Shown: piece after piece, positions 1,362-27,725 of the stretch
Layout: every line of letters starts with the position of its first letter
Position numbering within the stretch: the first letter of the stretch is position 1
Source: a virus
DNA length: 28,596 bases
IMG/VR virus record: IMGVR_UViG_3300046002_006149
Coordinates: 1-28,596 of that record
Direction: 5' to 3' (one strand)
Position numbers and translations under genes: made by a program
The notes under the pieces: model-generated
Told to the model about the DNA's origin: nothing
The model's input: only the letters and a program-made list of their open reading frames with translations
Databases searched by the model: none

Positions 1362-2075
1362 ATGAAAATTTTAGGACCTAGCGATACAGGTAAAGGTATA
1401 TTAGTTGAGTGGGATGCAGGGATTATTAATCCTAACGAACCACGTAATCAAAGTATTATACGTGAATCTTACGGACAATTGGAACATTCTAAACCATTTG
1501 AATTTTATGCAACTCTTCAAAAATGGGGAGTTCCAAATAGAAACGGGAGAGTATATCCTGAAAAGATATTAAGAAGAGAATCAGAAAAATACCAAGACGC
1601 TATTAAACGTGGTATGTCTATTTCAGAATTAAATCACCCTGAGTCTTCTTTAATTGACCTTGATAGAGTATCTCACCTTATTACAGAGATGTGGTGGGAA
1701 GGTAATGTATTGATGGGTAAGATTAAATTATTAACCACGCCAGGTTTCCATGAAAGAGGTATTGTATCATCTAAGGGTGATGTTGCGGCTAACATGATGA
1801 GACAAGGTGTTACTATGGGGGTATCTTCTCGTGGTGTTGGTTCATTAGTTAAAAAAGGTGACCAAAACGAAGTTCAAGATGATTTTGAATTAATTTGTTT
1901 TGACCTTGTATCTTCACCATCTACACCTGGTGCTTATCTTTACTTGAATAAAGAAGATAGACCAAGATATGAAGAAAAATTATCAGAACACGATAATACT
2001 TCAGTAAGTAGTGGTGGCGGATTAGAGAAATCTGTTGACTTAATGAAAAGATTAACCGATTATTTAGGTAGATAA
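1362..2075 (+). CDS. 21: Prohead core scaffold protease, T4 gp21 family
   Basis: This 237-residue serine protease matches T4 gp21 (about 212 residues) in size and motif order. It cleaves scaffold and capsid precursors inside the prohead before DNA packaging. The likely catalytic residues are visible: His92 in ELNHPES, Ser155 or Ser156 in MGVSSRG, and an acidic site around Asp181 in ICFDLVSSPS. WGVPNRNGRVYP at residues 55-66 is also typical of the family. A Gly/Ser-rich segment (SVSSGGG) precedes a C-terminal helix, which could be removed by self-processing. The gene lies in the canonical order gp21-gp22-gp23, interrupted only by a small DUF4494-like gene. Candidate cleavage sites are seen in both downstream substrates. 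Confidence 0.95.
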   Translation: MKILGPSDTGKGILVEWDAGIINPNEPRNQSIIRESYGQLEHSKPFEFYATLQKWGVPNRNGRVYPEKILRRESEKYQDAIKRGMSISELNHPESSLIDLDRVSHLITEMWWEGNVLMGKIKLLTTPGFHERGIVSSKGDVAANMMRQGVTMGVSSRGVGSLVKKGDQNEVQDDFELICFDLVSSPSTPGAYLYLNKEDRPRYEEKLSEHDNTSVSSGGGLEKSVDLMKRLTDYLGR

Positions 2076-2445: not shown

Positions 2446-4050
2446 ATGAGTTTAGAAAAAAACGAAAATTTAGTAGAGAAGGCTTTATTACAAATGAAGA
2501 CAATCGAGGAAGCTATAAGTGAAAATGCAAAAGGAATACTTGCTTCTACTATGAAGGAAGAAATCAGTGAACTAGTAAAAGAGTCATTGTTTGGCTCAAA
2601 ATCTAAATCATCTTTACACGAACAAGAAGAAGAAGGCGACGAAGAAGAAGTAAGCGCAGACGATGAAATTAACGTTGACGATGTTAACGTTTCAGACGAC
2701 GGTGTTGAGATGGGTGACGTTGAAGCTCAGGTAGGTCCTGAAGGTGGTGAATTAGATATCACTATGATGGGTGCTGGAGCTGAAACTGATAATGAAGACG
2801 AATTACCACCTCTTGATATGACGGGTGCAAAACCTGGCGAAGTATTGAAAGTGTTTAAGGCGATGGGTGATGAAGATGGAATTATCGTTGTTAAAGATGA
2901 TAATAAAATCCACCTTACTGATAATAACACTGATACTGAATATTTTATCGATTTAGGTGATGATTCAGAAATGTCTATGGAAGAACCTATGGAAAATATG
3001 AATGAGAGTGTGATTTATGAATTAGTCTTCGAAGAGGATGAAAAAATGGGTAAACACGAAATGGAAGAAGAGGATTATAACTTAGAGGAAGAATTAGATG
3101 AGGAACTTGACGAAACAATTTATGAATTGGAAGTTAGTGAGTCTATGAAACCTGTTGGAATCGGATTCGGAAAAATGAAAAATGGTTTATCTAAATCATC
3201 TGTTAACAACAAAGGTTTCGATGAAGATATGGAAAATGGTTTGAAATCAGAGAAAAAAGGAAAAGGTCCTAAATTCAACTACGGTAAAATTAAACATGGT
3301 GTTACTGAAAACTACATGGAAGAAGATTACATGGAAGAAGGATGGATGGATGAAGAAATGATTGATGATATGAAAACTGAATCTGACTACATGGAAGGCG
3401 ACTACATGGAAGGCAACTACATGGAAGGCGACTACATGGAAGGCAACTACATGGAAGGTGACTACATGGAAGGCAACTACATGGAAGGTGACTACATGGA
3501 AGGTGACTACATGGAAGGTGATTGTATGGAAGGTGATTGTATGGAAGGTGATGAATTACCAGGTGAAACCACAGAAGCATCAAGAACTATGACTTACATG
3601 AGAAGAGCACAAAGAGACCGTGTTGCAGCACCAAGTCAATTAAGAAAAGAATCTGTTGTAAAAGAACTCGATTTATTAAAAGAAAAAAATGAAGAGTACA
3701 AAAAAGCTCTCGATTTCTTTAGAAATAAATTGAATGAAGTTGCAGTTTTCAATTCAAACTTGGCATATTCAACTAGATTGTTCACTGAACACTCAACAAC
3801 AAAACAAGAAAAAATAAACATCCTTAGAAGATTTGATAACGTTGAAACTATCAAAGAATCTAAATCACTTTACAAGGCGATTAAATCTGAACTTGAGGGA
3901 AGTAACAACAGTGACGTAGTTACTGAGTCTATCCAAAGACAAGTTGTTAAAACACCTTCAAATGGTTCAGCATCTAATTTGATTGAAAGTAAAACTTACG
4001 AAAATCCTCAATTCATGAGAATGAGAGATTTAATGGCAAAAATAAAATAA
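2446..4050 (+). CDS. 22: Prohead core scaffold protein, T4 gp22 family, with a pentapeptide repeat
   Basis: The gp22 scaffold fills the prohead and is degraded by gp21. I start at ATG 2446 (MSLEKNENLVEK); the frame is open up to a TTG at 2431 but the ATG is the better start. The protein is 534 residues, against about 269 for T4 gp22. A helical N-terminus is followed by a very acidic Glu/Asp/Met-rich region, then a tandem DYMEG/NYMEG array (residues 314-368). The conserved C-terminal domain lies at about residues 404-485: a coiled coil, then RNKLNEVAVFNSNLAYSTRL, FTEHSTTKQEKINILRRFD and ESKSLYKAIKSEL, the part typical of marine T4-like gp22. It sits directly before gp23, as expected. Confidence 0.9.
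   Translation: MSLEKNENLVEKALLQMKTIEEAISENAKGILASTMKEEISELVKESLFGSKSKSSLHEQEEEGDEEEVSADDEINVDDVNVSDDGVEMGDVEAQVGPEGGELDITMMGAGAETDNEDELPPLDMTGAKPGEVLKVFKAMGDEDGIIVVKDDNKIHLTDNNTDTEYFIDLGDDSEMSMEEPMENMNESVIYELVFEEDEKMGKHEMEEEDYNLEEELDEELDETIYELEVSESMKPVGIGFGKMKNGLSKSSVNNKGFDEDMENGLKSEKKGKGPKFNYGKIKHGVTENYMEEDYMEEGWMDEEMIDDMKTESDYMEGDYMEGNYMEGDYMEGNYMEGDYMEGNYMEGDYMEGDYMEGDCMEGDCMEGDELPGETTEASRTMTYMRRAQRDRVAAPSQLRKESVVKELDLLKEKNEEYKKALDFFRNKLNEVAVFNSNLAYSTRLFTEHSTTKQEKINILRRFDNVETIKESKSLYKAIKSELEGSNNSDVVTESIQRQVVKTPSNGSASNLIESKTYENPQFMRMRDLMAKIK
3385..3549 (+). repeat. Eleven in-frame 15-bp tandem repeats in gp22
   Basis: The unit GACTACATGGAAGGC encodes DYMEG and occurs 11 times without interruption. 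The order of first residues is D, D, N, D, N, D, N, D, D, D, D. Variation is limited to GAC/AAC in the first codon, TAC/TGT in the second (last two units, DCMEG) and GGC/GGT in the last. Units 2-7 form three 30-bp doublets (DYMEGNYMEG). Degenerate copies (NYMEE, DYMEE) precede the array at about 3310-3340, and a DELPG unit follows it. Confidence 0.95.
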
Positions 4051-4080
4051 AATAAATAAACTCAAAAAAAAAATAAAAAA

Positions 4081-5901
4081 ATGGGAGCATTATTAGAATC
4101 AGGTCTTGTTGGTAACATTGGTTTGAAACACCTTAAAGTTATCAAAGAAGATACTATTAACAAATGGGATAAATTAGGATTCCTAGATGGTCTTAAAGGA
4201 CACATTAAAGAGAACATGGCTCAATTATATGAGAACCAAGCATCTTACCTAATCAACGAAGCGGCTGCAACTGATAGCTCAGGTTCATTTGAAACTGTTG
4301 TTTTCCCAATTGTTAGACGTGTATTCTCTAAATTGTTGGCTAACGATTTAGTTTCTGTACAAGCAATGAACTTACCTATCGGTAAATTGTTCTACTTTGT
4401 ACCTAAAATCCAAGGTTATGACATGGGTCAAGACCCAACTAACGGTGGTAATCACATCCCACCAATCGGTGCTCAAAACGGTCCTGCAAACGTAAACACA
4501 GGATATGGTGCAAATGACAAAAACCTTTACGATAGATTTTATGAAGGTAATGAGCCATCTTTAGACCCTCCAGGATTGTTTGACTATTCTAAAGGAGCGT
4601 TCAGTGCGGTTACTACTTCAGCTGATACTGTTGTTTGGTCTTCAGGTCAACTTGTAACTTCAGCTTATACAGCTGGTGAGTACAGAAAAGTATTAATCAA
4701 AATGACAGGATTTACAGGCGCAGGTGCAGGTAAATTAATCGGTCCTGATGGTCAAGCTATGGATAACGAAGCATTCCTTTCAGGATTAGAAGTTTACGCA
4801 GTAGCAGGAGCTCCAAACATTAACGCAGCGTTCTCAGGATTAGGTTCTAGTCCATTATTATTTAGAGTTGTTACTCAAAAATATGGTAGCGGTATCGTAC
4901 AGTACGGTTCAACTTCAACATCATCTTTCCCTGGTTCTGCAGGTTCTTACGGTGGTAATGACGGAAGTTATGATAACATCTGTAACGCAGCTGGTGAAAT
5001 CTATTTAGAAGTTGATGCTCAAGTACCATGTGCTATCGGTGCAAACTCTATTGACGGTTACTCAGGTATTACTACAACTGTAACTGGTCCAGCTATCAGT
5101 CAGTTCACATGTAAATGGAGAGTTTACAAAGAATTAGAATTCGAAGACAGAATTGGTGAGGTTTCTTTTGACTTACAGTCAGTAACTGTATCTGTAACAG
5201 AAAGAAAACTAAGAGCACAATGGTCTCCTGAATTGGCACAAGACGTTTCTGCATTCCACAACATCGATGCTGAAGCTGAATTAACAGCTTTATTATCTGA
5301 GCAAGTGGCGGCAGAAATCGACCGTGAAATTTTACGTGACTTACGTAAAGGTGCGGCTTGGACATTACGTTGGGATTACAACGGATGGAAAAGAGGTACT
5401 ACAGCTAACCCATTAACTCAATACACTCAAAAAGATTGGAATCAAACTTTGATTACAGCAATCAACCAAATTTCAGCACAAATCCACAAATCTACATTAA
5501 GAGGTGGAGCTAACTGGATTGTTGTATCTTCTGAGATTTCTGCTATCTTTGACGATTTAGAATACTTCCACGTATCTAACGCGTCTCCTGAGCAAGACCA
5601 ATACAACATGGGTATTGAAAGAGTTGGTACATTAGCTGGTCGTTACCAAGTTTACCGTGACCCTTACTTCCCACCAAACACAGTGTTGTTAGGTCATAAA
5701 GGTACTTCATTGTTAGATACTGGTTACGTTTACGCACCATATGTACCTCTACAATTGACACCTACAATGTACAATCCATTCAACTTTACACCTATCAAAG
5801 GTATTATGACACGTTACGCTAAGAAAATGGTTAACAACCGTTTCTACGGACGTATCACAGTTGATGGAGTTAGAACATTTGACTTGAGAGAATTGAGATA
5901 A
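4081..5901 (+). CDS. 23: Major capsid protein, T4 gp23 family
   Basis: This 606-residue protein forms the hexamers of the capsid shell. The N-terminus (MGALLESGLVGNIGLKHLKV) and VFPIVRRVFSKLLANDLVS (about residues 73-91) are characteristic of gp23. So is QAMNLPIGKLFYFVPKIQG, as are the C-terminal stretches around WRVYKELEFEDRIGEVSF and RYAKKMVNNRFYGRITVDG. A gp21 processing site of the (L/I)xE type is visible at I58-N59-E60 followed by AAA, close to the E65/A66 site of T4. It is somewhat longer than T4 gp23 (521); the extra length is mostly in Gly/Ser/Asn-rich loops between about residues 130 and 320, a likely surface insertion. The start follows an A-rich leader with no Shine-Dalgarno, and a strong terminator follows the gene. 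Confidence 0.97.
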   Translation: MGALLESGLVGNIGLKHLKVIKEDTINKWDKLGFLDGLKGHIKENMAQLYENQASYLINEAAATDSSGSFETVVFPIVRRVFSKLLANDLVSVQAMNLPIGKLFYFVPKIQGYDMGQDPTNGGNHIPPIGAQNGPANVNTGYGANDKNLYDRFYEGNEPSLDPPGLFDYSKGAFSAVTTSADTVVWSSGQLVTSAYTAGEYRKVLIKMTGFTGAGAGKLIGPDGQAMDNEAFLSGLEVYAVAGAPNINAAFSGLGSSPLLFRVVTQKYGSGIVQYGSTSTSSFPGSAGSYGGNDGSYDNICNAAGEIYLEVDAQVPCAIGANSIDGYSGITTTVTGPAISQFTCKWRVYKELEFEDRIGEVSFDLQSVTVSVTERKLRAQWSPELAQDVSAFHNIDAEAELTALLSEQVAAEIDREILRDLRKGAAWTLRWDYNGWKRGTTANPLTQYTQKDWNQTLITAINQISAQIHKSTLRGGANWIVVSSEISAIFDDLEYFHVSNASPEQDQYNMGIERVGTLAGRYQVYRDPYFPPNTVLLGHKGTSLLDTGYVYAPYVPLQLTPTMYNPFNFTPIKGIMTRYAKKMVNNRFYGRITVDGVRTFDLRELR

Positions 5902-12797: not shown

Positions 12798-13550
12798 TTA
12801 TTGATTATGTATTTTTTTAAGAGTTTCTAAATAAAGAGTCTTATATTTTTTTAAATAAGTTCTTATTTCTTTTGTACTTAAATTGGTCATTTCTCTTAAT
12901 GTTAATAACACAATATTCTTGTTAAATTTGTTATTATCATTACCTATAAAAATATTACCATAGTCATCGAATAATTCAATGAGTGCATAACCCAACTTAC
13001 TTTCGTTCTCCTGTAATTCATTACCCCCAACATATTTTTTCAGGTCAATCAAGAAAACATCAATAATTTTTTCAGCATCTATTTTTTCAAACTCTAAATA
13101 GTAGACCATATCCGGTCTATTTTCTAAAGTACCGGATATGTCCTCGTATGAAATTTTTCTATTCGTTTCTTTTTGGTCTTTTAAGATTTGACCCATCAAA
13201 TAATTTTTACATATAGTACCGAAGTAAGAATATGCTTTTTTATTCTTTGCTGGTTTGAATTTGTCAACTTTAGTCATTAGAAAAGAATGCGTATCCGTGT
13301 GAATATCGTTATAGTTCATATCTTTCCTATAAAGTTTATATCTTCTTATGATTGATTCAATCATCTTATCAAGAGGGTCTCTTAAAAATTCATTATAAAT
13401 AACTTCTTTTTCGTATTTTGTTTCAGCTATAATATAAGCCTTAACTGCCTCTTCCTCACGTACATCAAAGTAATTTGCCTTTTTTACTTTCTTTTCCGTC
13501 TTTTGCTCTTCGTATGTAACCTCAACAACAGTTCCAGACGATACAAACAT
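12798..13550 (-). CDS. 55: Late-transcription sigma factor, T4 gp55-like
   Basis: This 250-residue protein has a sigma region 2-like core at about residues 55-125. EFLRDPLDKMIESIIRRYKL is followed by HTDTHSFLMTKVDKFKPAKN and KAYSYFGTICKNYLMGQILK, the pattern of T4-type gp55 in environmental phages (core-polymerase binding and -10 recognition). The last 33 residues (LREMTNLSTKEIRTYLKKYK onward) look like a helix-turn-helix, as in sigma region 4, which classical T4 gp55 (185 residues) lacks. The N-terminal 50 residues are an extra Lys/Glu-rich extension. gp55 directs host RNA polymerase to late promoters TATAAATA. Its start overlaps the stop of the upstream glycosyltransferase gene by 1 base (TAATG). 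Confidence 0.82.
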   Translation of the reverse strand: MFVSSGTVVEVTYEEQKTEKKVKKANYFDVREEEAVKAYIIAETKYEKEVIYNEFLRDPLDKMIESIIRRYKLYRKDMNYNDIHTDTHSFLMTKVDKFKPAKNKKAYSYFGTICKNYLMGQILKDQKETNRKISYEDISGTLENRPDMVYYLEFEKIDAEKIIDVFLIDLKKYVGGNELQENESKLGYALIELFDDYGNIFIGNDNNKFNKNIVLLTLREMTNLSTKEIRTYLKKYKTLYLETLKKIHNQ

Positions 13551-14356
13551 TACGCTTCTTGTGCTTCGTATTTTATGTTTCTATCTGCAGTAAAGAAATG
13601 TTCTTTTTTTGCTGAGTCAATCCAAAATGCGATTTCATTGTCTGAAATTCTATTTTGACCATTTTTATAATTCCAAAAAATAGAACCTTCTCTAAAGTTC
13701 ATGTGTTTGTAACCAATTCTTGGGATAGTCATAATTTGAGCAGAATTGTATGTAAGACGAAGTAAAAACTCATAAACAAATGTCAGCTTAAAAGATGGTT
13801 TGAATCCACCATTATCTAAGAATGTTGATTTTTTTATAACCATACCACTCGTTTGAAAGTTTTGGTATTCCATTAAAACTTCATTTGTCAAATAACCAAT
13901 CTCAGAGTTCAAACTTGCTGCAAATGTTGCTTCATTTGTAAAACCAACAAACATACCTTTTTCGTCAGTATCAACAACTAATGCTAAAAATGCATCTACT
14001 TCTGGATACGCTTCAGAATATCTTTTTACATTCTTAAACCAAATTGTTGAGTACTCATCATCAAATTCTAAAATACTAACTAACTCGGATTTAGCGTTTT
14101 CAACACCAAGATTAATTTGAGATGAGAAATCCACTTTACCTGTGTTCTCAACAAAATTTACAGTTAGTCCACTATAGTCAAAACTTTGTAGTTTATTTTT
14201 TAATCCATCTTCATCTGAATGTACCACAACTAATTCGGTTGGTTGTACTTGTTGAATCTGTAAAGATTTAATTGCTCTTTCATAATACTCATCAAAATTT
14301 CTTTGTTTCGATGAGTTAATAGGTAAAATTACCGATACGTCTAATGTGTTTTCCAT
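13550..14356 (-). CDS. Glycosyltransferase family 2-like (GT-A fold)
   Basis: This 268-residue protein starts with the GT-A beta strand VSVILPINSSKQRNFDEYYE. It contains a helix for nucleotide-sugar binding (INLGVENAKSELVSILEFDD) whose LEFDDEYS (residues 96-103) takes the place of the metal-binding DxD motif. Later it has MVIKKSTFLDNGGFKPSFKL and a C-terminal acceptor region. GT2 enzymes transfer a sugar from a nucleotide diphosphate donor to a glycan, lipid or protein. There is no membrane segment, so it acts in the cytoplasm. It lies between a GT-B enzyme gene and the late sigma gene, at the downstream end of the sugar cluster. Donor and acceptor cannot be told. Confidence 0.8.
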   Translation of the reverse strand: MENTLDVSVILPINSSKQRNFDEYYERAIKSLQIQQVQPTELVVVHSDEDGLKNKLQSFDYSGLTVNFVENTGKVDFSSQINLGVENAKSELVSILEFDDEYSTIWFKNVKRYSEAYPEVDAFLALVVDTDEKGMFVGFTNEATFAASLNSEIGYLTNEVLMEYQNFQTSGMVIKKSTFLDNGGFKPSFKLTFVYEFLLRLTYNSAQIMTIPRIGYKHMNFREGSIFWNYKNGQNRISDNEIAFWIDSAKKEHFFTADRNIKYEAQEA

Positions 14357-14360
14357 AATA

Positions 14361-15428
14361 TTAATTTGTTTGTTCTGTTATATTCAATTTATCCAATTGT
14401 TCTTGGAATGCTTCAGCTCTTGAATTGAAAATATCATTAAATAAATCTAAAACACTACTTTCAAATTTTGATTTATTTTTAAACTCGTTAGAAGTAGTTA
14501 ACATGTTCTCATATAATTTTTCTGAGATATTATCCTCCAACCAATTTTGTACAAAGTTAGCTACAACGTCAACTATATCGTTTTCATTGTTTACCCATAC
14601 CCCATTTTCATCATTCATCCAAGTAGGTAACATATTTGGAACCTTACCAATTACCGGTGTTCCCGATGACATAGATTCTAATGGGAATGTACCAAATGAT
14701 GATTCGGCATCCACCCATACACTTAAAAACGACTCCTTCAAGAATTTAGAAAAGTCAGTCAATGAGATACCTCTCATGTCTCTAAATGTAATCCATCTAT
14801 ACTGAGGGTACTTCAAATAAAATGTTTTGATAATTTTAGCAGTAGCTCTTTGGTCTCTTGTGTGAATAGAGATAATTGGTTTAGAAGGTTTTTCTTTTTT
14901 ACTAAATGTTTCATCGATGTAAGGTTCAATTAAATCCACACTTACATTTTTCATAATTTCAGAAATATAATTTTTTTGAGTTTCTGAAGTTGTAATACAT
15001 TTATAAACGCCTAATTGAGACCATGTAACACCAGGTGCTAAAGTTTCTAACATATGGTCATATGCTTGACACAATACAATTTTACCACACGGTAAATTTT
15101 TAATTTGTTCCATTACGTGACCATACAATTCAGGAATAATAATTACATCTTCTGGTGAGATAGAAAGATTCTGACCATCAATTGCTTGATGGGGTAATTC
15201 CATGTACGATTCATTTAACCATGAAGAAACACCTTCATAATCTTTTGTTTCGTGAATAAGAATAGGATTATATCCATTTTCTTTCAATACGACCGCAAAA
15301 TCATAAATGTATTTTATCGAAGCTTTTGGGTTACCTTTTGTATCTTGCACTAAAAGGTAAATACGTGCCGTCTTGTCTTTTAATTTTTCAATTGAATTTT
15401 CAATTTTAACAATTTTTTCTAAGTCCAT
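14361..15428 (-). CDS. Glycosyltransferase, GT4-like (GT-B fold)
   Basis: This 355-residue, two-domain protein has an N-terminal half with IYLLVQDTKGNPKASIKYIY. The C-terminal half carries the donor-site hallmark AESSFGTFPLESMSSGTPVI at 241-260: Glu242 and Glu251 correspond to the E-x7/8-E pair, and G-T-P-V-I-G is the usual loop. It is close to the family's normal length of 350-400. It has no signal peptide or membrane helix, so it is cytoplasmic. It lies 4 bases upstream of the GT2 gene and 3 bases downstream of a small hypothetical gene. A role in glycosylating a phage product or host surface glycan is inferred from the cluster. Confidence 0.82.
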   Translation of the reverse strand: MDLEKIVKIENSIEKLKDKTARIYLLVQDTKGNPKASIKYIYDFAVVLKENGYNPILIHETKDYEGVSSWLNESYMELPHQAIDGQNLSISPEDVIIIPELYGHVMEQIKNLPCGKIVLCQAYDHMLETLAPGVTWSQLGVYKCITTSETQKNYISEIMKNVSVDLIEPYIDETFSKKEKPSKPIISIHTRDQRATAKIIKTFYLKYPQYRWITFRDMRGISLTDFSKFLKESFLSVWVDAESSFGTFPLESMSSGTPVIGKVPNMLPTWMNDENGVWVNNENDIVDVVANFVQNWLEDNISEKLYENMLTTSNEFKNKSKFESSVLDLFNDIFNSRAEAFQEQLDKLNITEQTN

Positions 15429-15431
15429 TTC

Positions 15432-15713
15432 TTAAAATTTTTTTATTATTTTATTTAATAGTAATGTATTAAAAGAAATTTTGAATGGTATAGACAATTC
15501 TTTTGCGCTGTGTAAGCCTAATGAATCATCAATTGATTCTCGTTCTGAAAGAACAATTTCCATTAATAACTTAAATGTTTCATATCTTGTAACACTTATT
15601 TGTTCATTTTCTGTTTCACCCGAAATAGGAATTAACTTAGAGTTAGCTAAACTAACTTGTGTTTCTAGTTCATCTACGTCGAAGTAATAATTTTCACCTA
15701 AAAATGGTATCAT
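15432..15713 (-). CDS. Small hypothetical protein beside PhoH and glycosyltransferase genes
   Basis: This 93-residue soluble protein (MIPFLGENYYFDVDELETQV at the start) has a helical middle (TRYETFKLLMEIVLSERESI) and a basic hydrophobic end (LLNKIIKKF). I recognise no family. It overlaps the stop of the HAD-like gene by 4 bases (ATGA-type coupling) and ends 3 bases before the GT4-like gene, so it is made with them. Its steady position in the operon supports a real gene. Confidence 0.7.
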   Translation of the reverse strand: MIPFLGENYYFDVDELETQVSLANSKLIPISGETENEQISVTRYETFKLLMEIVLSERESIDDSLGLHSAKELSIPFKISFNTLLLNKIIKKF

Positions 15714-16363
15714 AATTCTATATTATTTATTAATTCATCAAAATCTTTTAACGATTCGATTTTATGTTTAGTTTTTATTGATTTATTATAATCCGTTTCG
15801 TATTGAACTACAATAATGTTATCAGGGTGATTCTCAATCAAATCAGGGTTTGCCGTTAATAACACATCTATTTTTTCCCACATTTGGTCAATTGTTGTGG
15901 TGGAATAAAATTTAATGTTTTCTATTAGACAACCAAACTTTGATAGGAAGAATAAAGTTGCGGGTTTAGATTTACCAATTTCATCTGAAACTATATAGAT
16001 TTCATAGTTATCTCTATTTTTAGTATAAAACTCATTCAAATCATTAAATGAGTAAGTTTCACAAGAACCTGCATGACCAAAAAGTTGCATAGGAAAATCC
16101 TCAAACATGAAATCATATAACTCTTCATCAGACTTAAATGAAAAGTGATTTTTAAGGTCTAAAGAATCCACAGGTAATGTAATTTTATATTCAAAAGACT
16201 CTTCAACCTCATCTAAAGTTGTATTACCTGATAAATCCAACGAAAACGTTTGATTAGAATTTTCCGCCTCATAATTTTCAATCATATGTTTTTCATATAA
16301 TTGTTTGAATTTACCAATCGTGTCTCTTAAAACACCGTTAACCTCAATCCCTATTCTCTTCAT
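15710..16363 (-). CDS. HAD-like protein with degenerate catalytic motifs
   Basis: This 217-residue protein starts MKRIGIEVNGVLRDT, where HAD phosphatases and nucleotidases have (I)DxDGVLRDT. The nucleophile Asp is replaced by Glu7 and the general acid Asp by Asn9. Motif II appears intact at YIVSDEIGKSK (Ser126, Lys131/Lys133). Motif IV, usually DVLI(T/D)DNP, reads DVLLTANPDLIEN with its Asp gone. The fold is therefore probably HAD, but hydrolysis is doubtful; it may bind a phosphorylated ligand or protein. It overlaps the PhoH gene by 20 bases, so the two are coupled. Confidence is good for the HAD resemblance and low for function. Confidence 0.65.
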   Translation of the reverse strand: MKRIGIEVNGVLRDTIGKFKQLYEKHMIENYEAENSNQTFSLDLSGNTTLDEVEESFEYKITLPVDSLDLKNHFSFKSDEELYDFMFEDFPMQLFGHAGSCETYSFNDLNEFYTKNRDNYEIYIVSDEIGKSKPATLFFLSKFGCLIENIKFYSTTTIDQMWEKIDVLLTANPDLIENHPDNIIVVQYETDYNKSIKTKHKIESLKDFDELINNIEL

Positions 16364-17099
16364 CGTATTTTACTAAAATTTTACTAATTAATGGGTTTCT
16401 AACATTCTTAGCATTTCTAAAATCATAAACACCAATATCATCAATTCCACTAAACCTCTGTAAAGCGTCGTAAAGACCTGATTGTTTTTTATCTTTATAT
16501 CTGTCGGTTTGTTCTAAATCACCTGATATAAAGAACTTACTATTAAACCCTATTCTTGTCAATAGTAATTTCATTTGATTTGGGGTTGCATTTTGCGCCT
16601 CCTCAAAAATTAAAATAGAATTATCAATATTCATACCCCTCATATAAGCTAATGCAAATACCTCGATGATTTCTGAATCCTTAAGTTTTTCTCTTGCCTC
16701 TTTTCCGATAATTTTATTCAAAAGATAATATGACGGAAAGATATACGGGTCCAACTTTTCTTCTAAGTTACCGGGTAAAGAACCTAATTTTTCTTCGGCT
16801 TCTACTGCCGGTCTTACAATTATAAGTTTTTCATATGCGTTATTAGGGTCCATAAGTAAGTCAACCGCAGCTTTCATAGAGATATAACTTTTACCAACAC
16901 CTGCAGGTCCTGAACAAATTGTAATTTGATTATTCATCAGTAAATCATAATAATCTTTTTGATTGTCTGATAAAAACTTACTTTTTTGCTTTTTCTTTAT
17001 TACTGAGTTTATAAAATCTTTTTTTGAAAAAGATTTAGGAGTATTTAATTCTTCTGTTTGTGGTGATGGGGTTGTTGTTTTTTTTCTTGTTGTACGCAT
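16344..17099 (-). CDS. phoH: PhoH-like P-loop ATPase
   Basis: This 251-residue protein has a Walker A GPAGVGKS at 64-71, RPAVEAEEKLGSLPG at 96-110 and a Walker B-type ILIFEEAQNATPNQM at 162-176, followed by ISGDLEQTDR. These are the PhoH family marks. The N-terminal 30 residues are a basic, Thr-rich extension. PhoH is a very common auxiliary gene in marine T4-like phages; the family includes predicted RNA/DNA-directed ATPases, and its phage role is debated. Length matches phage PhoH proteins. The gene lies 3 bases downstream of the SDR gene at 17103-17921 and overlaps the HAD-like gene. Confidence 0.93.
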   Translation of the reverse strand: MRTTRKKTTTPSPQTEELNTPKSFSKKDFINSVIKKKQKSKFLSDNQKDYYDLLMNNQITICSGPAGVGKSYISMKAAVDLLMDPNNAYEKLIIVRPAVEAEEKLGSLPGNLEEKLDPYIFPSYYLLNKIIGKEAREKLKDSEIIEVFALAYMRGMNIDNSILIFEEAQNATPNQMKLLLTRIGFNSKFFISGDLEQTDRYKDKKQSGLYDALQRFSGIDDIGVYDFRNAKNVRNPLISKILVKYDEENRD

Positions 17100-17102
17100 A
17101 TT

Positions 17103-17921
17103 TTAGTTATATAATGTTTTAGAAAAATCTTTTAGTTCCTCAATTTGTTGTTTTAGTGTTGGGATTTCTATTTCGTGTGTGTAAGTACTACTGATACTTC
17201 TATCACACGAAATTTCAGTTTTTTTTGGAGTTACTTGAACATCTAAATCGTAAACTTCACTTATCAACTCAACTAGTTCTTTTTTAGAAACGGTATTAGA
17301 GTGAATATGTCTAGTGCCAACCCAAAATAAATTTCTTTCAATCATTTCTTTGCAAATTTTAGCAAACTGTAAACACGTTACACCATTCCAATAATGATTA
17401 GTAAATCCGAAAACTGTTTGACCTTTAACTGATTTAATCCACTCAATTAGAGACCTTGTTTGACCAACTTCTTCACCAATAATAGATGTTCTTATAACCG
17501 TACAATTTTTAGGTTCACCTAACGCTTTAGTCATACCATAAACATCATTAACATCATATTTATCATTTTCATTATACGAACCCTTATTACCGGTATAAAC
17601 ACAATCAGTAGTTGGGTGAATCATCTTAACTTCTAATCTTTCGCTGACGTTAGCTAACATCCTTGGAAAAACTGAGTTTATTTTTATTGCGTTTAAGTCA
17701 CCCAATTCATCAACTCTTGGTTTAATCGCTCCTGCACAATTTATTATGATGTCATTTTTTTTGATAGATAAATTTAATAACACACTTTCTATTTCATTTT
17801 CCGATGTGTTTGAACCATCAATTAAATTTCTACCAACTTTAATAACTTCATAATAATCTTTAAGATATGTTGATACATAATTACCTAACATACCATTACT
17901 TCCAAATACAAATACTTTCAT
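17103..17921 (-). CDS. NAD(P)-dependent sugar reductase, RmlD-like SDR
   Basis: This 272-residue extended SDR has the Rossmann motif GSNGMLG at 7-13, INCAGAIKP at 60-68, a TTDCVYTG strand with the active-site region at 104-111, and the catalytic pair Tyr128/Lys132 in VYGMTKALGE. This matches dTDP-4-dehydrorhamnose reductases (about 280-300 residues), which reduce the 4-keto group of a nucleotide sugar. The next gene upstream is an RmlC-like cupin, so the two could act in series on a 4-keto-6-deoxy sugar. Substrate is inferred and other 4-keto sugars are possible. Confidence 0.82.
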   Translation of the reverse strand: MKVFVFGSNGMLGNYVSTYLKDYYEVIKVGRNLIDGSNTSENEIESVLLNLSIKKNDIIINCAGAIKPRVDELGDLNAIKINSVFPRMLANVSERLEVKMIHPTTDCVYTGNKGSYNENDKYDVNDVYGMTKALGEPKNCTVIRTSIIGEEVGQTRSLIEWIKSVKGQTVFGFTNHYWNGVTCLQFAKICKEMIERNLFWVGTRHIHSNTVSKKELVELISEVYDLDVQVTPKKTEISCDRSISSTYTHEIEIPTLKQQIEELKDFSKTLYN

Positions 17922-17934
17922 AACTTAAATTTTT

Positions 17935-18354
17935 TTATCTATAATCTTCATCCCAAATGTTCCATTTATCATAATCTTCTCTAATATCATCACCTAAACT
18001 TTCTTCAAGTGTGGATGTTGAAAAAAAGATTATTTTTGTGTCATCCTCTAATGATTTAAACCCATTATAGTTACCCGGTGGAATCCATAAGATTTTAGGA
18101 GATTTATCACTAAGTACAAATTTTTGAACTTCATTTGTTTCCATATTTACCACACCAATAAGTGCCGAACCTGCAGTCACATAAACATATTTACCTTCTT
18201 TTTTGTGTCCGTGCCATGCTCTGATAAAACCTTGTCTATGGTTTTCCACTTGATAAAATCTTTTAACGTTTTGAAAATCAAAATCATTTACGAATCTTAC
18301 TGAACCTCTGTCATCAACGGCTAAACCACCATTAATTAATTTTGTTGTACTCAT
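17935..18354 (-). CDS. RmlC/WxcM-like sugar epimerase or isomerase (cupin)
   Basis: This 139-residue cupin has a short DDRGSVRFVNDF start, RAWHGHKKEGKYVYVTAGSA (beta strands with the His that in RmlC acts as base), ILWIPPGNYNGFKSL (cupin motif 2) and a C-terminal EDYDKWNIWDEDY. It is shorter than canonical RmlC (about 180) and closer to the WxcM/FdtA-type cupins that isomerise or epimerise dTDP-4-keto sugars. It sits between two SDR genes, with a 4-base overlap with the upstream one and 13 bases to the downstream one, so it is co-expressed. The exact reaction (3,5-epimerase or 3,4-keto-isomerase) cannot be settled from motifs. Confidence 0.78.
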   Translation of the reverse strand: MSTTKLINGGLAVDDRGSVRFVNDFDFQNVKRFYQVENHRQGFIRAWHGHKKEGKYVYVTAGSALIGVVNMETNEVQKFVLSDKSPKILWIPPGNYNGFKSLEDDTKIIFFSTSTLEESLGDDIREDYDKWNIWDEDYR

Positions 18355-19307
18355 ACAAATTCTTTATTTTCTTTTTTATTTTTTAAGAATGCACCATTGT
18401 GGTACACTTTATCTTCAGGGTTCATTACCCTACCTTCTTCAAACATTTTTACCATTCTTAAAACTTCTTCTTCAACAGTTACTTTTGGTTTGTATTCAAA
18501 AACTTCTAACGATTTTGAGTTATCAACCTTATAGTTTCTAGCGTCTTGGAAAGAGATTTCAGTATAATTGATTTTTGTATTAGGGATGATATCAACTATT
18601 CTTTCACCTAATTCTTTTATCAAAACATTTTCTTTCGCCAAAACAAAGATACCTGAATGTCTTTTATCACAGGCTTCTACAACATACTCGGCGATATCTT
18701 TAACTGCAATAATCGGTCTCCATTGTTCTCCTCCGTTAATTGTTATCTCACCATCTTTGATTGCCTTCATAGTTAATACATTAACAACCAAATCCATTCT
18801 TAATCTCGAATAAGTGTCACCTAATCCAAATACGGTACCCAATCTAAAAATTGTCCCGTTTCTTTGTTGGATGTACTTTTCAGCTGCTAACTTAGTTGAA
18901 GCATAAGATGATAATGGATTAGTTCCACTTTCTTCATTTAGTAAACCATCCTGAGCACCATAAACAGAACATGTGGACATAAATACCAAATGTTTACTTG
19001 GAGAAACTACCTCACAGAAGTTTTTGATTGATTGGAAATTAATCTCTTCAGTTAACTTATGGTCCACACTACATGCTGGGTCGCCTACTAATGCGGCCAT
19101 TAAAACTATCACGTCAAAATCGTTTGAAATTTCGTATAATTTTTCAGTGTCTCTTATATCACCGTAAATAAATTTCACGTCTTTCAAATATCGGTTCTCA
19201 TATAATAGATTATCGTAAACAGTAACATCAAACCCATCTCGGATTAAATAATCACAAGTCAATCCACCAATGTAACCTGACCCACCTACTACTAAAACTT
19301 TTTTCAT
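18351..19307 (-). CDS. NAD-dependent nucleotide-sugar epimerase/dehydratase (SDR)
   Basis: This 318-residue extended SDR has GGSGYIG at 8-14, an FMSTCSVYG strand at 109-117, the catalytic pair Tyr135/Lys139 in SSYASTKLAAEKYI, and a sugar-binding RP(I/V)xV-type segment (EQWRPIIAVKDIAEYV). The family includes UDP-glucose 4-epimerase and nucleotide-sugar 4,6-dehydratases; which one cannot be decided. I start at ATG 19307 (MKKVLVVGG), which leaves a 1-base gap to the upstream gene; ATG 19319 (MVNKMKK) is possible and would overlap it by 11. The C-terminus (VMNPEDKVYHNGAFLKNKKE) is an extension beyond the usual fold. It overlaps the RmlC-like gene by 4 bases. Confidence 0.82.
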   Translation of the reverse strand: MKKVLVVGGSGYIGGLTCDYLIRDGFDVTVYDNLLYENRYLKDVKFIYGDIRDTEKLYEISNDFDVIVLMAALVGDPACSVDHKLTEEINFQSIKNFCEVVSPSKHLVFMSTCSVYGAQDGLLNEESGTNPLSSYASTKLAAEKYIQQRNGTIFRLGTVFGLGDTYSRLRMDLVVNVLTMKAIKDGEITINGGEQWRPIIAVKDIAEYVVEACDKRHSGIFVLAKENVLIKELGERIVDIIPNTKINYTEISFQDARNYKVDNSKSLEVFEYKPKVTVEEEVLRMVKMFEEGRVMNPEDKVYHNGAFLKNKKENKEFV

Positions 19308-19308
19308 T

Positions 19309-19662
19309 TTATTTACCATATTTTTTTACCTCAGGATTAAAACCCGCAGATTCATCACCACCGTTTATTCTAGAAATTATACCGATTAATTTTTCATCAA
19401 TACATTTTTTTAATCTAGCTCTTTCTCTAACTAATTTAACGTCTTCGACAGATGCCCATGACTTGAATTCATTATCATCCTGTCTATCCATAACTTCGTC
19501 TTTTAGTTTATACAACTTGAAATTTACAATTGATAACCTATCAACCAATTCTCCCATGGATAATAGTGTTTCAAAAGAATTTTCAGGTAAATCGTAACTG
19601 TTGTCGTATTCTTTGATACTCTTTTCAATTATAGTATCGATAATTTCACTTAAGCTTCCCAT
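19309..19662 (-). CDS. Small helical protein with a GELVDRLSIVNFK motif
   Basis: This 117-residue protein is predicted mainly helical. SMGELVDRLSIVNFKLYKLK (about residues 35-54) is followed by a second helix rich in Arg/Lys (VRERARLKKCIDEKLIGII). A similar layout occurs in two other small genes of this cluster (20953-21147 and 21144-21407), suggesting one small family. From memory it is reminiscent of DUF4254-like proteins linked to polysaccharide loci, but I cannot confirm that. It overlaps the upstream aminotransferase-type gene by 13 bases. A structural or partner role for sugar enzymes is possible; function unknown. Confidence 0.7.
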   Translation of the reverse strand: MGSLSEIIDTIIEKSIKEYDNSYDLPENSFETLLSMGELVDRLSIVNFKLYKLKDEVMDRQDDNEFKSWASVEDVKLVRERARLKKCIDEKLIGIISRINGGDESAGFNPEVKKYGK

Positions 19663-20966
19663 TGTTTTAAAAATTCATCTACTTTGTTTATTATTGTTTC
19701 TATGTGTTCTTCAGTATTTACTTGTGAAACACCAATCATTAAAAATTTTTCTGTGATTTTGTCCGCATTTTCATGAGTACCATATGATTCCCATAAGTGT
19801 TTACTCTTTTGGTATGCTGGATGCCTCATTAGATTACCACCAAATAAAACTCTAGTTTCAATACCATTTCTTTTCAAATGGTCCACTAAATGTTTTCTAT
19901 TAAATGGTGCGTCATCAGGAATTAAAAATGGAAATGAAAACGGAGAAACCTCATCATCAATTTCCCAAACCTTAAAGTTATATTTTGATTTAGTAAAGTA
20001 GTCGTATAATTTACGATAATTACTTTTTCTTATTTCGCTAAACTCACCAATTCTATCAATTTGTTTTATCAACATCGCCGACTGAAGTTCCAAAGGTTTT
20101 AGATTATACCCCAAATATTCAAATTGGTAATTCACCATATAATCAGACGGTAAATCACAATTTTTTGTTAGTTTGTTGATAGGACAAAATAATTCAGGAT
20201 GTTCAGACCTAATACAACAATTAGGTGAAGAACAATATCTACCCCAATTTCTAAATCCTCTCATAGTTGCGTGTAACTCTTCGTCGTTAGTTACAATTCC
20301 ACCACCTTCACCCATTGTAATATGGTGTGCTACATAAAAACTGAACGTTGCCGCCTTACCATACGCTTGAATAGGTCTTTCATGGTAAAACGTACCATAT
20401 GAATCACAGTTATCAAAAAACACATGAATATTGTATTTTCTTGCAATATCCAATATTTCGTTAATTCTTGTTTTGAAACCTAAAGTGTGCGCAACAAAAA
20501 GACCTTTTATTTTATCGTCTGACTTAATTGCTTCTTCAAACAATTCAGGATTAAGATTTAGGTCTTCTAAATCGATATCTAAAAACACAGGTATTAGTCT
20601 ATTCTGTATAATTGGGTTAACTGTTGTTGGGAACCCACAAGAAAGTGTGATAATTTTATCACCATCTTCAAAATACAACTCTTTCGCTGCAGACATTAAA
20701 AGTAGATTTGCAGAACTACCCGCGTTACATAAAAGACCATAATTTCTATCTGATATTTTTGCTAACTTTCTTTCCGCTTCAACAGTAAATTTACCTGCTG
20801 ACCACCAATCAGAAAAAATGGCATCCAACATATTTGAATACTCTTCATTACCTAATACGGGTCCCGAATAACGTATTTTTTTTCGATTAGAGTCTTCTTC
20901 ATTTTTTTTATTTACCCACTCGGAAAATAAAACTTTTATTTGATTTTCAATATCAACCTTGTTCAT
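19650..20966 (-). CDS. DegT/RfbH-type 3-dehydrase (PLP enzyme with His instead of Lys)
   Basis: This 438-residue fold-type I PLP protein belongs to the DegT/DnrJ/EryC1/StrS group. The catalytic segment reads FYVAHHITMGEGGG (211-223). Where ordinary aminotransferases have the PLP lysine, this has His214, the mark of the RfbH/E1 (DdhC) and ColD 3-dehydrases that remove the C3 hydroxyl of a 4-keto-6-deoxy sugar. DNCDSYG (185-191) is the PLP pocket. A Cys-rich insert with five cysteines (Cys245, 250, 251, 261 and 270) follows and may hold the [2Fe-2S] cluster of E1-type enzymes, though its spacing differs. It points to a 3,6-dideoxy sugar. The gene overlaps its upstream neighbour by 14 bases and the downstream one by 13. 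Confidence 0.85.
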   Translation of the reverse strand: MNKVDIENQIKVLFSEWVNKKNEEDSNRKKIRYSGPVLGNEEYSNMLDAIFSDWWSAGKFTVEAERKLAKISDRNYGLLCNAGSSANLLLMSAAKELYFEDGDKIITLSCGFPTTVNPIIQNRLIPVFLDIDLEDLNLNPELFEEAIKSDDKIKGLFVAHTLGFKTRINEILDIARKYNIHVFFDNCDSYGTFYHERPIQAYGKAATFSFYVAHHITMGEGGGIVTNDEELHATMRGFRNWGRYCSSPNCCIRSEHPELFCPINKLTKNCDLPSDYMVNYQFEYLGYNLKPLELQSAMLIKQIDRIGEFSEIRKSNYRKLYDYFTKSKYNFKVWEIDDEVSPFSFPFLIPDDAPFNRKHLVDHLKRNGIETRVLFGGNLMRHPAYQKSKHLWESYGTHENADKITEKFLMIGVSQVNTEEHIETIINKVDEFLKQWEA

Positions 20967-21147
20967 TCTTAAAAAAATTATCTAATTGTTCAGTTAATTC
21001 GTATTCTCGGTTTATTAGTCTTTCACATTCTTTTGCTGAAACTTTTCTTTGCTCAACGGGTAAGGACTCGTCTCTTACAATTGAATTGTGTTTCATCCAT
21101 AATAACCACATTTCTGTTAGTTCTGAAATTAGTTCACTGAATTTCAT
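20953..21147 (-). CDS. Small helical hypothetical protein (second of three similar)
   Basis: This 64-residue protein is all-helical. MKFSELISELTEMWLLWMKH is a hydrophobic/Trp-rich first helix and ECERLINREYELTEQLDNFF is a charged second helix. The two-helix pattern, with S-E-L-I near the start of the first helix, parallels the proteins at 19309-19662 and 21144-21407. It overlaps both neighbours (14 bases with the RfbH-type gene, 4 with the 87-residue gene), so it is coupled to them. No function can be assigned. Confidence 0.65.
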   Translation of the reverse strand: MKFSELISELTEMWLLWMKHNSIVRDESLPVEQRKVSAKECERLINREYELTEQLDNFFKNEQG

Positions 21148-21407
21148 TTTTGATTGTGTTTGTGGATGTTATAAGTTTTGATTTTTTTCAAAACAATATT
21201 TTTTTCTTTACCTGTAACTACTTTGTCAATTTTATCATCCAAATAATTTGCAATGACTCCCCTGTTTTCATTAAGAGTCATCATATTATTTGTTAGTGTT
21301 ACATACTCCTCATCTGATATACCCTCAGAGTGTAGTTTTTCTCTTAGTGTGAAAATTTTAATATTTTCAATAACTAATTTGTCTATTAAATCGCCGATAC
21401 TATTCAT
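21144..21407 (-). CDS. Small helical hypothetical protein (third of three similar)
   Basis: This 87-residue protein begins MNSIGDLIDKLVIENIKIFT, very like the GELVDRLSIVNFK start of the 117-residue protein downstream. It continues with a Met/Asn-rich second helix (NNMMTLNENRGVIANYLDDK) and a basic tail. It overlaps the SDR gene upstream by 8 bases and the next small gene by 4. It probably folds as a helical hairpin. It may be a partner or chaperone of the adjacent sugar enzymes, but this is inference. Confidence 0.65.
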   Translation of the reverse strand: MNSIGDLIDKLVIENIKIFTLREKLHSEGISDEEYVTLTNNMMTLNENRGVIANYLDDKIDKVVTGKEKNIVLKKIKTYNIHKHNQK

Positions 21408-22194
21408 AGTTTAATAATATACTTTTTTTATGTTTTAATAAAGAGTCCACATAATTTTTCATATCCTGCTCCCAAGAAGTTAACGTGCAGAATTTTTCTA
21501 ATTTTTCAGTGGACATTAAGAACTTACCGTAGTTTGTGAAGTCCCTTTTTATTTCTGATACTTGATTGATTTTTTTATTACCACCTAATAAATCGTTTAT
21601 ATAACAACCATATTCGTAGTGTGTGGTAAACCCTTTGTTTGATAAGTTGAATATCCCAAATAGATTTTTGTTTTCAAGTTCATAGTTTATAACTTGTAAA
21701 ACTTGATTTAGACTAGTAGGGTTGAAGGGGATGGTATCTAAAATAACCTCATCACTTTTTATTATGTGTTCAGTTAATTTATTTTGTTTTGAAATGTCTA
21801 AATGTCCGTATAATTTACCTACCCTAAACGATACTCCGTTTTTTATCAAAGATTCTCCTTTTTGTTTTTGTTCGCAATATTTGTATTCATTTGTTGTTTT
21901 AGAATCTTCAGTACAAAAACCATTATCATCATATACATAATACGATGAAAAATTTATAATTTTTGCTTTCGGGTAAAAAGTTTGTATATCTTCTATAACT
22001 TTATAGTTTGAGTAGTTGGTCTCCTCTATATTCTTTTCACAGTATTCTAAGTTAGGTTTACCAATACAGTTAATAACGTAATCATATGTTTTACCATTGT
22101 TATAAACCTCTCTTTTTTCTAAGATGTCAACATCTAAATTTTCATTTATATAAGAACCTAAATAACCTTTATGTCCTAATAATAAAATTTTCAT
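21400..22194 (-). CDS. Nucleotide-sugar SDR (RmlD/epimerase-like)
   Basis: This 264-residue protein has the Rossmann motif GHKGYLG at 7-13, VINCIGKPN at 40-48, NFSSYYVYDDNGF at 81-93 and catalytic Tyr106/Lys110 in YCEQKQKGES. It is short for the family (300-340), with a reduced C-terminal substrate domain. Most likely it is a reductase or epimerase acting on a dTDP-, UDP- or GDP-linked sugar. It is one of five SDR-type genes here. Its start shares one base with the stop of the upstream GT2-like gene (TAATG). Confidence 0.78.
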   Translation of the reverse strand: MKILLLGHKGYLGSYINENLDVDILEKREVYNNGKTYDYVINCIGKPNLEYCEKNIEETNYSNYKVIEDIQTFYPKAKIINFSSYYVYDDNGFCTEDSKTTNEYKYCEQKQKGESLIKNGVSFRVGKLYGHLDISKQNKLTEHIIKSDEVILDTIPFNPTSLNQVLQVINYELENKNLFGIFNLSNKGFTTHYEYGCYINDLLGGNKKINQVSEIKRDFTNYGKFLMSTEKLEKFCTLTSWEQDMKNYVDSLLKHKKSILLNYE

Positions 22195-22967
22195 TACATA
22201 TATTTTTTAGTGTAAGATGGGTGAGGGTCAACCTCACTTATTTTTCTTCTGGCTTGTGAAATGTGTGTTGGTGGATGAGGTGTTGAACTTGGTGTCCATC
22301 CTGCCCATGAAGATTCCCATTTGTTTTTGAAAACAATTTCATTAAACATATCATTCATAGGTAGTCTATCTTCTATTTGATTCGCCACTCTATTTGTAAC
22401 ATCTAAATCGTTATGTATTGAACTACTTTCTTCTTCAGATGAGTTATGACTATACGTACCTTGTGCTGGGTAGATGTTTACTGGAATGTTATGTTCAGAG
22501 GCTCTTATCATAAAATCTACATCAAAATGCGGACCTAAACCAAACCCTTCATCAAACCATCCCATAACAGGTATGATATCCTTATCAATCATAAAAACCG
22601 AATGGTTTTCAAGTAACAAATATCTAGATTTATTAGTTATCCCCGCTTTAATTATATTAAACCAAGATGGTGTTAAAAAATGAATATCAGAACTTGCAAA
22701 AACTATATATTTTGTGGGGGACAACATAATTCCTAAATTCCAAGCCTCAGATAATGTTGTTCTATAAGAACTTTCACATATTCTAATTTTTCTATCAGGG
22801 ATTGTGTTACAAAATTCCCTTAATTCTCTGATTGTCTCTTCAGATGAATCGGCATCAACCAAACAAAAATTAACATTTTTTGGTGTTGTTTCGTCTGCTG
22901 ACTTTATGGACCTTTTTAATAGATTTATTCTATTTCTAAAAGACCATACAATTGTTACATTTTCCAT
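22194..22967 (-). CDS. Glycosyltransferase family 2-like
   Basis: I start at ATG 22967 (MENVTIVWSFRNRINLLKRS), which puts the GT-A first strand at the N-terminus; ATG 22994 would add nine residues and a 40-base overlap with the methyltransferase gene. The protein has 257 residues. FCLVDADSSEETI (34-46) and the helix LSEAWNLGIMLSPTKYIVFA are typical. SSDIH at 92-96 takes the DxD position, and MGWFDEGFGLGPHFDVDFMI matches the GT2 acceptor/metal region. It probably transfers a sugar in the cytoplasm to a glycan chain or protein; donor unknown. The upstream neighbour is a methyltransferase, so a methylated sugar is conceivable. Confidence 0.82.
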   Translation of the reverse strand: MENVTIVWSFRNRINLLKRSIKSADETTPKNVNFCLVDADSSEETIRELREFCNTIPDRKIRICESSYRTTLSEAWNLGIMLSPTKYIVFASSDIHFLTPSWFNIIKAGITNKSRYLLLENHSVFMIDKDIIPVMGWFDEGFGLGPHFDVDFMIRASEHNIPVNIYPAQGTYSHNSSEEESSSIHNDLDVTNRVANQIEDRLPMNDMFNEIVFKNKWESSWAGWTPSSTPHPPTHISQARRKISEVDPHPSYTKKYM

Positions 22968-23611
22968 TTTTTTGGTGTTAAAATTGCTGAACATCTAGGT
23001 ACTTGACATTCCGAATTAATGTCAACCCCTAATTTATTTATATATTTTATTGGTAAATCGGACATAACGTCCAAGTCATAATATTCAAACAAATGATTAT
23101 AATAAAAAACTTGTTCTTGGTAGGTTTCTTTTTCAAAATCAAACCAATCATGAATGAAAATAGGAACTTTAAAATTAGTATATTTTAAAATATGGTTATA
23201 AATCAACTCACCCATACTTCTTGAGTGTTCACAATCTATAAGTATGAAATCAATTTCATTATTATCTATATATTTTTGAACTACTTCATAAGACTCATAT
23301 AAATCTATTTTATCAAATTTTAAATCTGTAAAATTCATACATTCTAGTGCGAAAGTTTTCCTTTTAATCCCGAGAACATCTAAAAGTTTTGTTGTGGTAC
23401 CCGAACCCAACTCTAAAACTTTTTTGATATTATTTTCTCTTAAAAAAGTTTCTAATAAGAATAAGTCGAATGGGTTTACACCCAAATGAATTAATTCTTC
23501 ATATCTGGTTAAATTAAAATTGTCTACTACATTTATAATTTTATTAAAAATCTTTTGATAATTGTAAGTATAACCGGGTCGATTTATTATATAACCATAT
23601 TCGTCTGCCAT
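22955..23611 (-). CDS. SAM-dependent methyltransferase (class I)
   Basis: This 218-residue protein has a Rossmann-like SAM motif I VLELGSGTTT at 65-74, FALECMNF (the motif after strand 2) and FILIDCEHSRSM (about 120-131) in the position of motif IV. The overall layout resembles small-molecule/sugar methyltransferases of the methyltransferase-24 type. It has no DNA-methylase NPPY/DPPY motif, so it is unlikely to modify DNA. It lies inside the sugar cluster, overlapping the GT2-like gene by 13 bases, so sugar O- or N-methylation is the natural guess. Its start shares one base with the upstream epimerase stop. Confidence 0.78.
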   Translation of the reverse strand: MADEYGYIINRPGYTYNYQKIFNKIINVVDNFNLTRYEELIHLGVNPFDLFLLETFLRENNIKKVLELGSGTTTKLLDVLGIKRKTFALECMNFTDLKFDKIDLYESYEVVQKYIDNNEIDFILIDCEHSRSMGELIYNHILKYTNFKVPIFIHDWFDFEKETYQEQVFYYNHLFEYYDLDVMSDLPIKYINKLGVDINSECQVPRCSAILTPKKWKM

Positions 23612-24618
23612 TACATTTTGTCTTTCATATAATTTATTACCTCTTGAATAGAGTTATCTAAACTAATAACGGCTTCAAATCCTAAAAGTTCTTTTGCTTT
23701 TGAAGTATTAGGAATTCTTTTTTGTACATCATATTCGTAACCAGCGTCACAAACATGATTAAATGGTTCATCAGGTCTTAAATACCCCCAAATTTTTTCG
23801 GCAAGTTCTAAAACTGATGTTGCTGTTGATGTTGATAAATTGAAGTCATTGTTAATTGCTTTATCTGATTCCATAACCATTCTAATACCACGAGCTAAAT
23901 CACTACCATTAGTATAACATCTTACTTGGTCTCCACAACCTAAAACGTGTAATGGGTTTTGTCCCTTTAATATTTTATTAATTAAATCAGGTAATACGTG
24001 AGACATCATTAGTTTAATATTTCCTGACGTAACTTCATGTTCAGAAATAGAATCCTCTTCACCAACACCTACACAATTGAATGGTCTTACAATACTGTAA
24101 GGTAAACCATATTGCTCAAACGCACCTTTAGCAAAATACTCAGATGCTAACTTTTGAAATCCATAAGTTGAACTTGGTGGTGGGCAATTTTTAATTTCAG
24201 TTTCAGGAGTAGGGTATACTGTAGTCTCTTCAAATACCATCGAACTCGACATAACAATAATTCTTTTTAACCAACCTTCTTGATGACCTTTAATTGCCGC
24301 GTCAAATGTTTGGGCTAAAATTCTTTCATTAGTTGCTAATAAATCATATGCGTATTTGTGAAAATAAGAAATACCACCAATCATAGCAGCACCTGCAATA
24401 ATCATATCAGGTTTTTCATCTGAAACAATTTGTGAAAATTCATCAGTTAATACATCCGCAACATAAAGTTTGAAGTTGGGATTTTTATCTTGAGGTCTAC
24501 TTACTTGACCGTACTTTGAGTAGTTATCAATACCTACAACTTTGTAACCATTTTCTAATAATTCTTGGCAGATGTAACTACCGATAAATCCTTGACTTCC
24601 TGTTAATAAAACTTTCAT
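23611..24618 (-). CDS. NAD-dependent nucleotide-sugar epimerase/dehydratase (SDR)
   Basis: This full-length (335-residue) extended SDR has GSQGFIG at 7-13, VADVLTDE, IVMSSSMVFEE (121-131), catalytic Tyr152/Lys156 in STYGFQKLASEYF, and SIVRPFNCVG followed by VRCYTNGSDLARG, the sugar-binding part. It resembles UDP-glucose 4-epimerase, GDP-mannose 4,6-dehydratase or dTDP-glucose 4,6-dehydratase families. Because the RfbH- and RmlC-type enzymes downstream need a 4-keto-6-deoxy sugar, a 4,6-dehydratase is expected; this and 18351-19307 are candidates, not proven. The gene lies 5 bases downstream of the UDP-sugar dehydrogenase-like gene. Confidence 0.83.
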   Translation of the reverse strand: MKVLLTGSQGFIGSYICQELLENGYKVVGIDNYSKYGQVSRPQDKNPNFKLYVADVLTDEFSQIVSDEKPDMIIAGAAMIGGISYFHKYAYDLLATNERILAQTFDAAIKGHQEGWLKRIIVMSSSMVFEETTVYPTPETEIKNCPPPSSTYGFQKLASEYFAKGAFEQYGLPYSIVRPFNCVGVGEEDSISEHEVTSGNIKLMMSHVLPDLINKILKGQNPLHVLGCGDQVRCYTNGSDLARGIRMVMESDKAINNDFNLSTSTATSVLELAEKIWGYLRPDEPFNHVCDAGYEYDVQKRIPNTSKAKELLGFEAVISLDNSIQEVINYMKDKM

Positions 24619-24623
24619 AACTT

Positions 24624-25418: not shown

Positions 25419-25420
25419 CT

Positions 25421-26197: not shown

Positions 26198-26200
26198 ATC

Positions 26201-26974: not shown

Positions 26975-26977
26975 AAA

Positions 26978-27724: not shown

Positions 27725-27725
27725 A

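Follow-up and report, generated by a model that had tools for sequence, protein, structure and literature searches.

The tandem array described here, which lies in the putative scaffold gene of an uncultured virus, is likely to be an in-frame minisatellite that expands a spacer region, tolerant, disordered and for the most part acidic, in a core protein of the T4 type. The DNA analysed, referred to as the window, is the whole stretch of 28,596 nucleotides at positions 1 to 28,596 of IMG/VR record IMGVR_UViG_3300046002_006149. The array consists of in-frame tandem units whose copy number differs among close relatives, as is characteristic of a coding minisatellite, and it occupies one of two hotspots at which other clades carry tandem units unrelated to it.

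The 534-aa ORF that contains the array lies between a prohead protease of the S77 (T4 gp21) family and a major capsid protein of the Gp23 family (Table 1), an order that matches T4 genes 21-22-23 and places the ORF where a gp22-type (T4_CASP) protein is expected. The ELNH and GVSSRG motifs of the protease (the His and Ser motif positions) align with the T4 gp21 structure 5jbl. Like T4 gp22, the protein has strongly acidic stretches and many E/S and E/A junctions (the slash marks a potential cleavage point). Unlike T4 gp22, it has a disordered middle with tandem arrays and is about twice as long, as originally noted (534 aa versus 269 aa), and it has no detectable similarity to gp22 of T4 or the cyanophages. 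Pfam and PHROG searches with the ORF returned no match to a scaffold family (PF25623, phrog_237), whereas T4 gp22 itself, run as a control, matched PF25623 at 7e-89; comparison of the ORF with T4 and cyanophage gp22 by hhalign gave a probability of <1%. Membership in the T4 gp22/T4_CASP family by sequence (Pfam, PHROG and hhalign) was thus rejected. The gp22 label of the original prediction is upheld by gene order beside gp23 and a functional-looking S77 protease but not by sequence similarity, and since gene order is kept while profile similarity is absent, it holds by position only. We infer a scaffold from the position and character of the protein, not from similarity to the gp22 family.

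A tblastn search with the ORF against 50,697 phage records returned no match and thus revealed no direct homologue in named phages. By hhalign, the C-terminal core matches WWT39314.1 of Microcystis phage Mel-JY01 (E 1.5e-9, 96%, 75 columns) and QQO92121.1 of Flavobacterium phage immuto (E 1.6e-5, 79%, 68 columns), and the ORF thus shares this core with a family of proteins found at the scaffold position. These two proteins resemble the ORF in gene position, in the homologous C-terminal core and in having an acidic middle, but they lack the DYMEG array and are shorter (366 and 413 aa, respectively). The immuto protein (L093, 3707-4948; annotated as 'DNA polymerase phi-like') has a tandem duplication of its own of roughly 60 residues. 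To judge from some of the closest named phages, the host of the group is perhaps a member of the Bacteroidota. Elsewhere in the window, the minus strand carries a long sugar-nucleotide and glycan block (13550-28544) encoding glycosyltransferases, epimerases/dehydratases, a DegT-type aminotransferase and a UDP-glucose/GDP-mannose dehydrogenase family protein, with a PhoH gene inside it at 16344-17099. In the gap between the scaffold and capsid genes, an A-rich run at about 4068-4075 is one A shorter in the window than in L001, L002, L091 and L092, probably through an error in sequencing the homopolymer or as a variant of no consequence.

Table 1. Features of the head gene region of the window, in order of position
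Feature	Position	Strand	Residues	Remarks
Prohead protease, Peptidase_S77 (T4 gp21 family)	1362..2075	+		PF03420, E 1e-23; ELNH and GVSSRG motifs
Scaffold-like ORF, 534 aa	2446..4050	+	1-534	ATG at 2446 (MSLEKN...), the start conserved in relatives
Conserved N-terminal helix	2455..2592	+	4-49	pLDDT 72-79 at residues 11-40
Candidate protease site VKE46/S47	2581..2586	+	46/47	V, E and S invariant in 35 sequences
Predicted disordered acidic middle region	2959..3570	+	172-375	pLDDT under 50; contains the array
Repeat hotspot 1	3007..3147	+	188-234	Arrays EMDESYD, EMYEEDD and EGDYHME in other clades; DYMEG in L109
Repeat hotspot 2	3304..3573	+	287-376	DYMEG array in the window; MMEDDD or EMMEMDD in other clades
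Degenerate units NYMEE-DYMEE-GWMDE	3310..3354	+	289-303	Just 5' of the array
Array of 11 in-frame 15-bp units	3385..3549	+	314-368	Six DYMEG, three NYMEG, two DCMEG
Weaker candidate protease site E377/A378	3574..3579	+	377/378	Just 3' of the array; P3 is Thr; invariant
Conserved C-terminal helical core	3634..4047	+	397-534	AlphaFold2 helices at 397-484
Candidate protease site IKE471/S472	3856..3861	+	471/472	I/LKE in the family; E and S invariant
Candidate protease site VTE494/S495	3925..3930	+	494/495	E and S invariant
Candidate protease site LIE514/S515	3985..3990	+	514/515	L and E invariant; S in 30 of 35
Major capsid protein, Gp23 family	4081..5901	+		PF07068, E 6e-71
Candidate maturation site LINE60/A61, major capsid protein	4249..4266	+	60/61	LINE unchanged in all relatives with the N terminus present

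An AlphaFold2 model built from a 35-sequence alignment (mean pLDDT 48.7) predicts helices at the two conserved ends of the protein, a small alpha/beta element at residues 130-169 and a disordered middle. Across the family the standard deviation in length is 2-4 residues for the conserved segments designated N, K and C and 19-21 residues for the hotspots, while total length varies by 4%. Other clades carry unrelated, mostly acidic tandem units at both hotspots, including a 16-residue unit, which makes the DYMEG array one case of a family-wide habit. Not every hotspot is acidic: in L071-L078 the net charge of hotspot 2 is neutral or positive, and GMKGH repeats are present in L066. Residues 130-217 of the L066 scaffold contain the adjacent arrays GMEDYGMKGH and EDQEYNEQHNF, which are His/Lys-rich and not purely acidic. 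The distant relative L109 has DYMEG units (around 5300-5360) at hotspot 1, not hotspot 2, which suggests that a second site has gained this peptide unit, by independent origin or by spread. At the position of the array in the window clade, six relatives (L018, L027-L029, L031 and L034) possess a basic insert like HDYKRRxGHKxGDVxGHYKDYE, which may have been lost upon array expansion.

The 11 units follow one another without interruption in the order D D N D N D N D D Dc Dc, and the tandem structure scores 238 in TRF, far above chance. The position, unit length, copy number and frame of the array, and its lack of interruptions, were all exact in the original prediction; its title of eleven DYMEG/NYMEG repeats describes the nine [DN]YMEG units but not the last two, which are DCMEG (GATTGTATGGAAGGT). 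Codon usage in the array departs from that of the window genes: all nine Tyr codons are TAC, which makes up 35% of Tyr codons in those genes, and 5 of the 11 Gly codons are GGC, which makes up 3% there. Every unit contains an ATG, a possible internal translation start. The uniformity of the array codons relative to the rest of the window suggests copying at the DNA level, as expected of recent duplication. At the same time, the 20 DNA unit types encode just 6 peptide types, so that some constraint on the peptide sequence is probable.

Hundreds of relatives were found in IMG/VR, and 78 loci were retained. At hotspot 2 the DYMEG array is confined to one close clade and is absent from most of the wider family. 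Relatives in the array clade have 2-11 units, and a single fully supported clade of 13 members includes counts of 1 (L018), 2, 3, 4, 5, 6, 9 and 11; some copy numbers may be assembly-limited since 6 of the 30 contigs with an array break off no more than 100 bp from it. The window (11 units) and L002 (9 units) share 4,746 bp with zero mismatches and differ only by a 30-bp deletion of two units and one homopolymer A. Similarly, L099 and L112 are identical over 9.4 kb (zero mismatches) apart from one 15-bp unit (7 versus 6 units). Arrays with equal unit numbers also diverge, as the window and L044 differ at 12 positions in the 165-bp array but at one position across 1,335 bp of flanking sequence (Fisher P 3e-11). 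Copy number therefore varies between related phages, by whole units on otherwise identical genomes, as the original prediction anticipated, and together with codon homogeneity these differences bear out its proposal of recent expansion.

The array is proposed to have arisen from a single E-x-D-Y-M seed by tandem duplication, either through replication slippage or through recombination between units. The ExDYM seed is conserved as a single copy in sister clades, where the residues that follow it differ. Assembly would probably be carried out by the conserved helices at both ends of the protein, while the middle may be a spacer, long, negatively charged and tolerant of length changes, that acts as an electrostatic or volume filler of the prohead core. 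At maturation the S77 protease would then digest the spacer along with the rest of the putative scaffold. The reading frame and an overall acidic composition rich in Met and Tyr would be kept by selection, with unit number close to free.

The original prediction suggested a more specific role for the array, in which each YME/G unit would be cut after its Glu by the prohead protease and the scaffold thereby reduced to 5-residue peptides before packaging. T4 gp21 cleaves after Glu in L/I-x-E and reduces gp22 to peptides, the SPN3US protease uses A-x-E and phiKZ uses a related motif (PMC9026906, PMC9958956, PMC5694885); prohead proteases of giant phages tolerate other P3 residues (PMC5694885). 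Several points agree with shredding of this kind, including the E/G junction in every unit of the window, the occurrence of multiple redundant sites in known propeptides and cores (PMC9026906, PMC5694885) and the presence of DYMEG at hotspot 1 as well in L109. For a relaxed motif (any hydrophobic P3, x-E/small), which was widened after the data were seen, the count is 3 among 12 independent repeat units (a de-duplicated set) compared with 0.8 expected (P 0.035); a P of 0.002 obtained over 16 units was discarded because those units are not independent. Given this weak positive signal, cleavage by the protease within the array is possible.

Shredding as the function of the array is nevertheless unlikely and is not supported by the comparison of relatives. 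P3 in the array is Tyr (nine units) or Cys (two units) instead of L/I, which suits the relaxed hydrophobic motif only, and the strict (L/I)-x-E/small motif is found in 0 of 12 independent repeat units. The conserved candidate sites of the window phage carry I, L or V at P3; E402/S is a further invariant or near-invariant junction at which P3 is polar or charged, as at E377/A. The ORF has the sites expected of a gp21-type substrate outside the array: strict sites fall in invariant columns and are enriched in the C-terminal core (89 versus 15 expected) but stand at chance in the middle region (27 versus 31 expected), counts that are descriptive since the shuffles over the 45 proteins ignore kinship. 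T4 gp22, as a control, has 8 [LI]xE[AGS] sites versus 1.3 expected. Within arrays, MED and MKG units lack the Glu/Gly pair, and the one unit by which the 6- and 7-unit contigs described above differ is of the MED kind. In relatives that lack the array, the single-copy ExDYM is followed by EG, AG, DD, ED, GG, ES, EM or VD, giving seeds such as DYMAG, DYMDD, DYMGG and DYMEM. DYM is thus kept while Glu/Gly is not, and conservation does not favor cleavage in the array. Furthermore, the invariant E/S sites of the flanking helices are retained in relatives without an array. The giant phages phiKZ and SPN3US likewise have propeptides whose discarded segments carry multiple Glu-specific sites (PMC5694885, PMC9026906), but the main sites there match the protease motif and have been demonstrated by mass spectrometry or in vitro assay, whereas the DYMEG unit is at most a candidate site that fits the motif poorly.

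Less likely still, and argued by analogy with the contingency loci of bacterial surface genes, is that a fast-mutating in-frame repeat might keep populations mixed in scaffold length or in the number of protease sites and so tune maturation or head size. It is also improbable that cuts on either side of the array free it and that the head retains it in the form of one or several strongly acidic internal peptides like those of T4. The array is flanked by E312/S313 and the invariant E377/A378, and the T4 gp67 sequence has an acidic tail after FLIE/G, but P3 is Lys or Thr at the flanking sites and the array is missing from most members of the wider family.

A further improbable reading, ranked just below release of acidic peptides, is length tuning, the alternative named in the original prediction; it is compatible with the data and holds that repeat number sets the size of the scaffold core and hence the size or shape of the head, acting as an evolvable ruler. 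Keller et al. reportedly found in 1988 that mutations in T4 genes 22 and 68 alter head length, and the whole-unit differences between near-identical genomes could be read as changes to such a ruler. However, near-identical genomes presumably need equal head volume, yet their copy numbers differ. The raw lengths of hotspots 1 and 2 are negatively correlated (Spearman -0.36, P 0.03), but with tree-corrected contrasts the correlation is not significant (P 0.96, sign-flip test), and inside the array clade it is -0.46 (P 0.14). Length compensation between the hotspots was rejected as unproven since it was lost after tree correction. Least probable of all is that the copy-number differences are artefacts of short-read assembly of the repeat, for while contig ends near the array point that way, four more contigs (L089-L092) have an identical 11-unit allele, down to its D/N and GGC/GGT pattern, which speaks against random assembly error, and alleles differ in distinguishable unit types that are clade-specific.

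A minisatellite that expands a tolerant spacer thus accounts best for the array. No precedent for repeats in phage scaffold proteins was found in the literature searched. The BACON repeats of crAssphage are likewise tandem copies in a phage protein and an evolving repeat (PMC6949934); in the window, by comparison, the unit has 5 residues, lies in a disordered core protein and changes in number between otherwise identical genomes. In this wide uncultured T4-like group, the head-core protein has almost constant ends and a disordered acidic middle in which tandem repeats are gained and lost. The invariant E/S junctions predict the positions at which the prohead protease of the group cuts, and the alleles that differ in repeat number on otherwise identical genomes offer a natural series with which to ask if head assembly depends on scaffold length.
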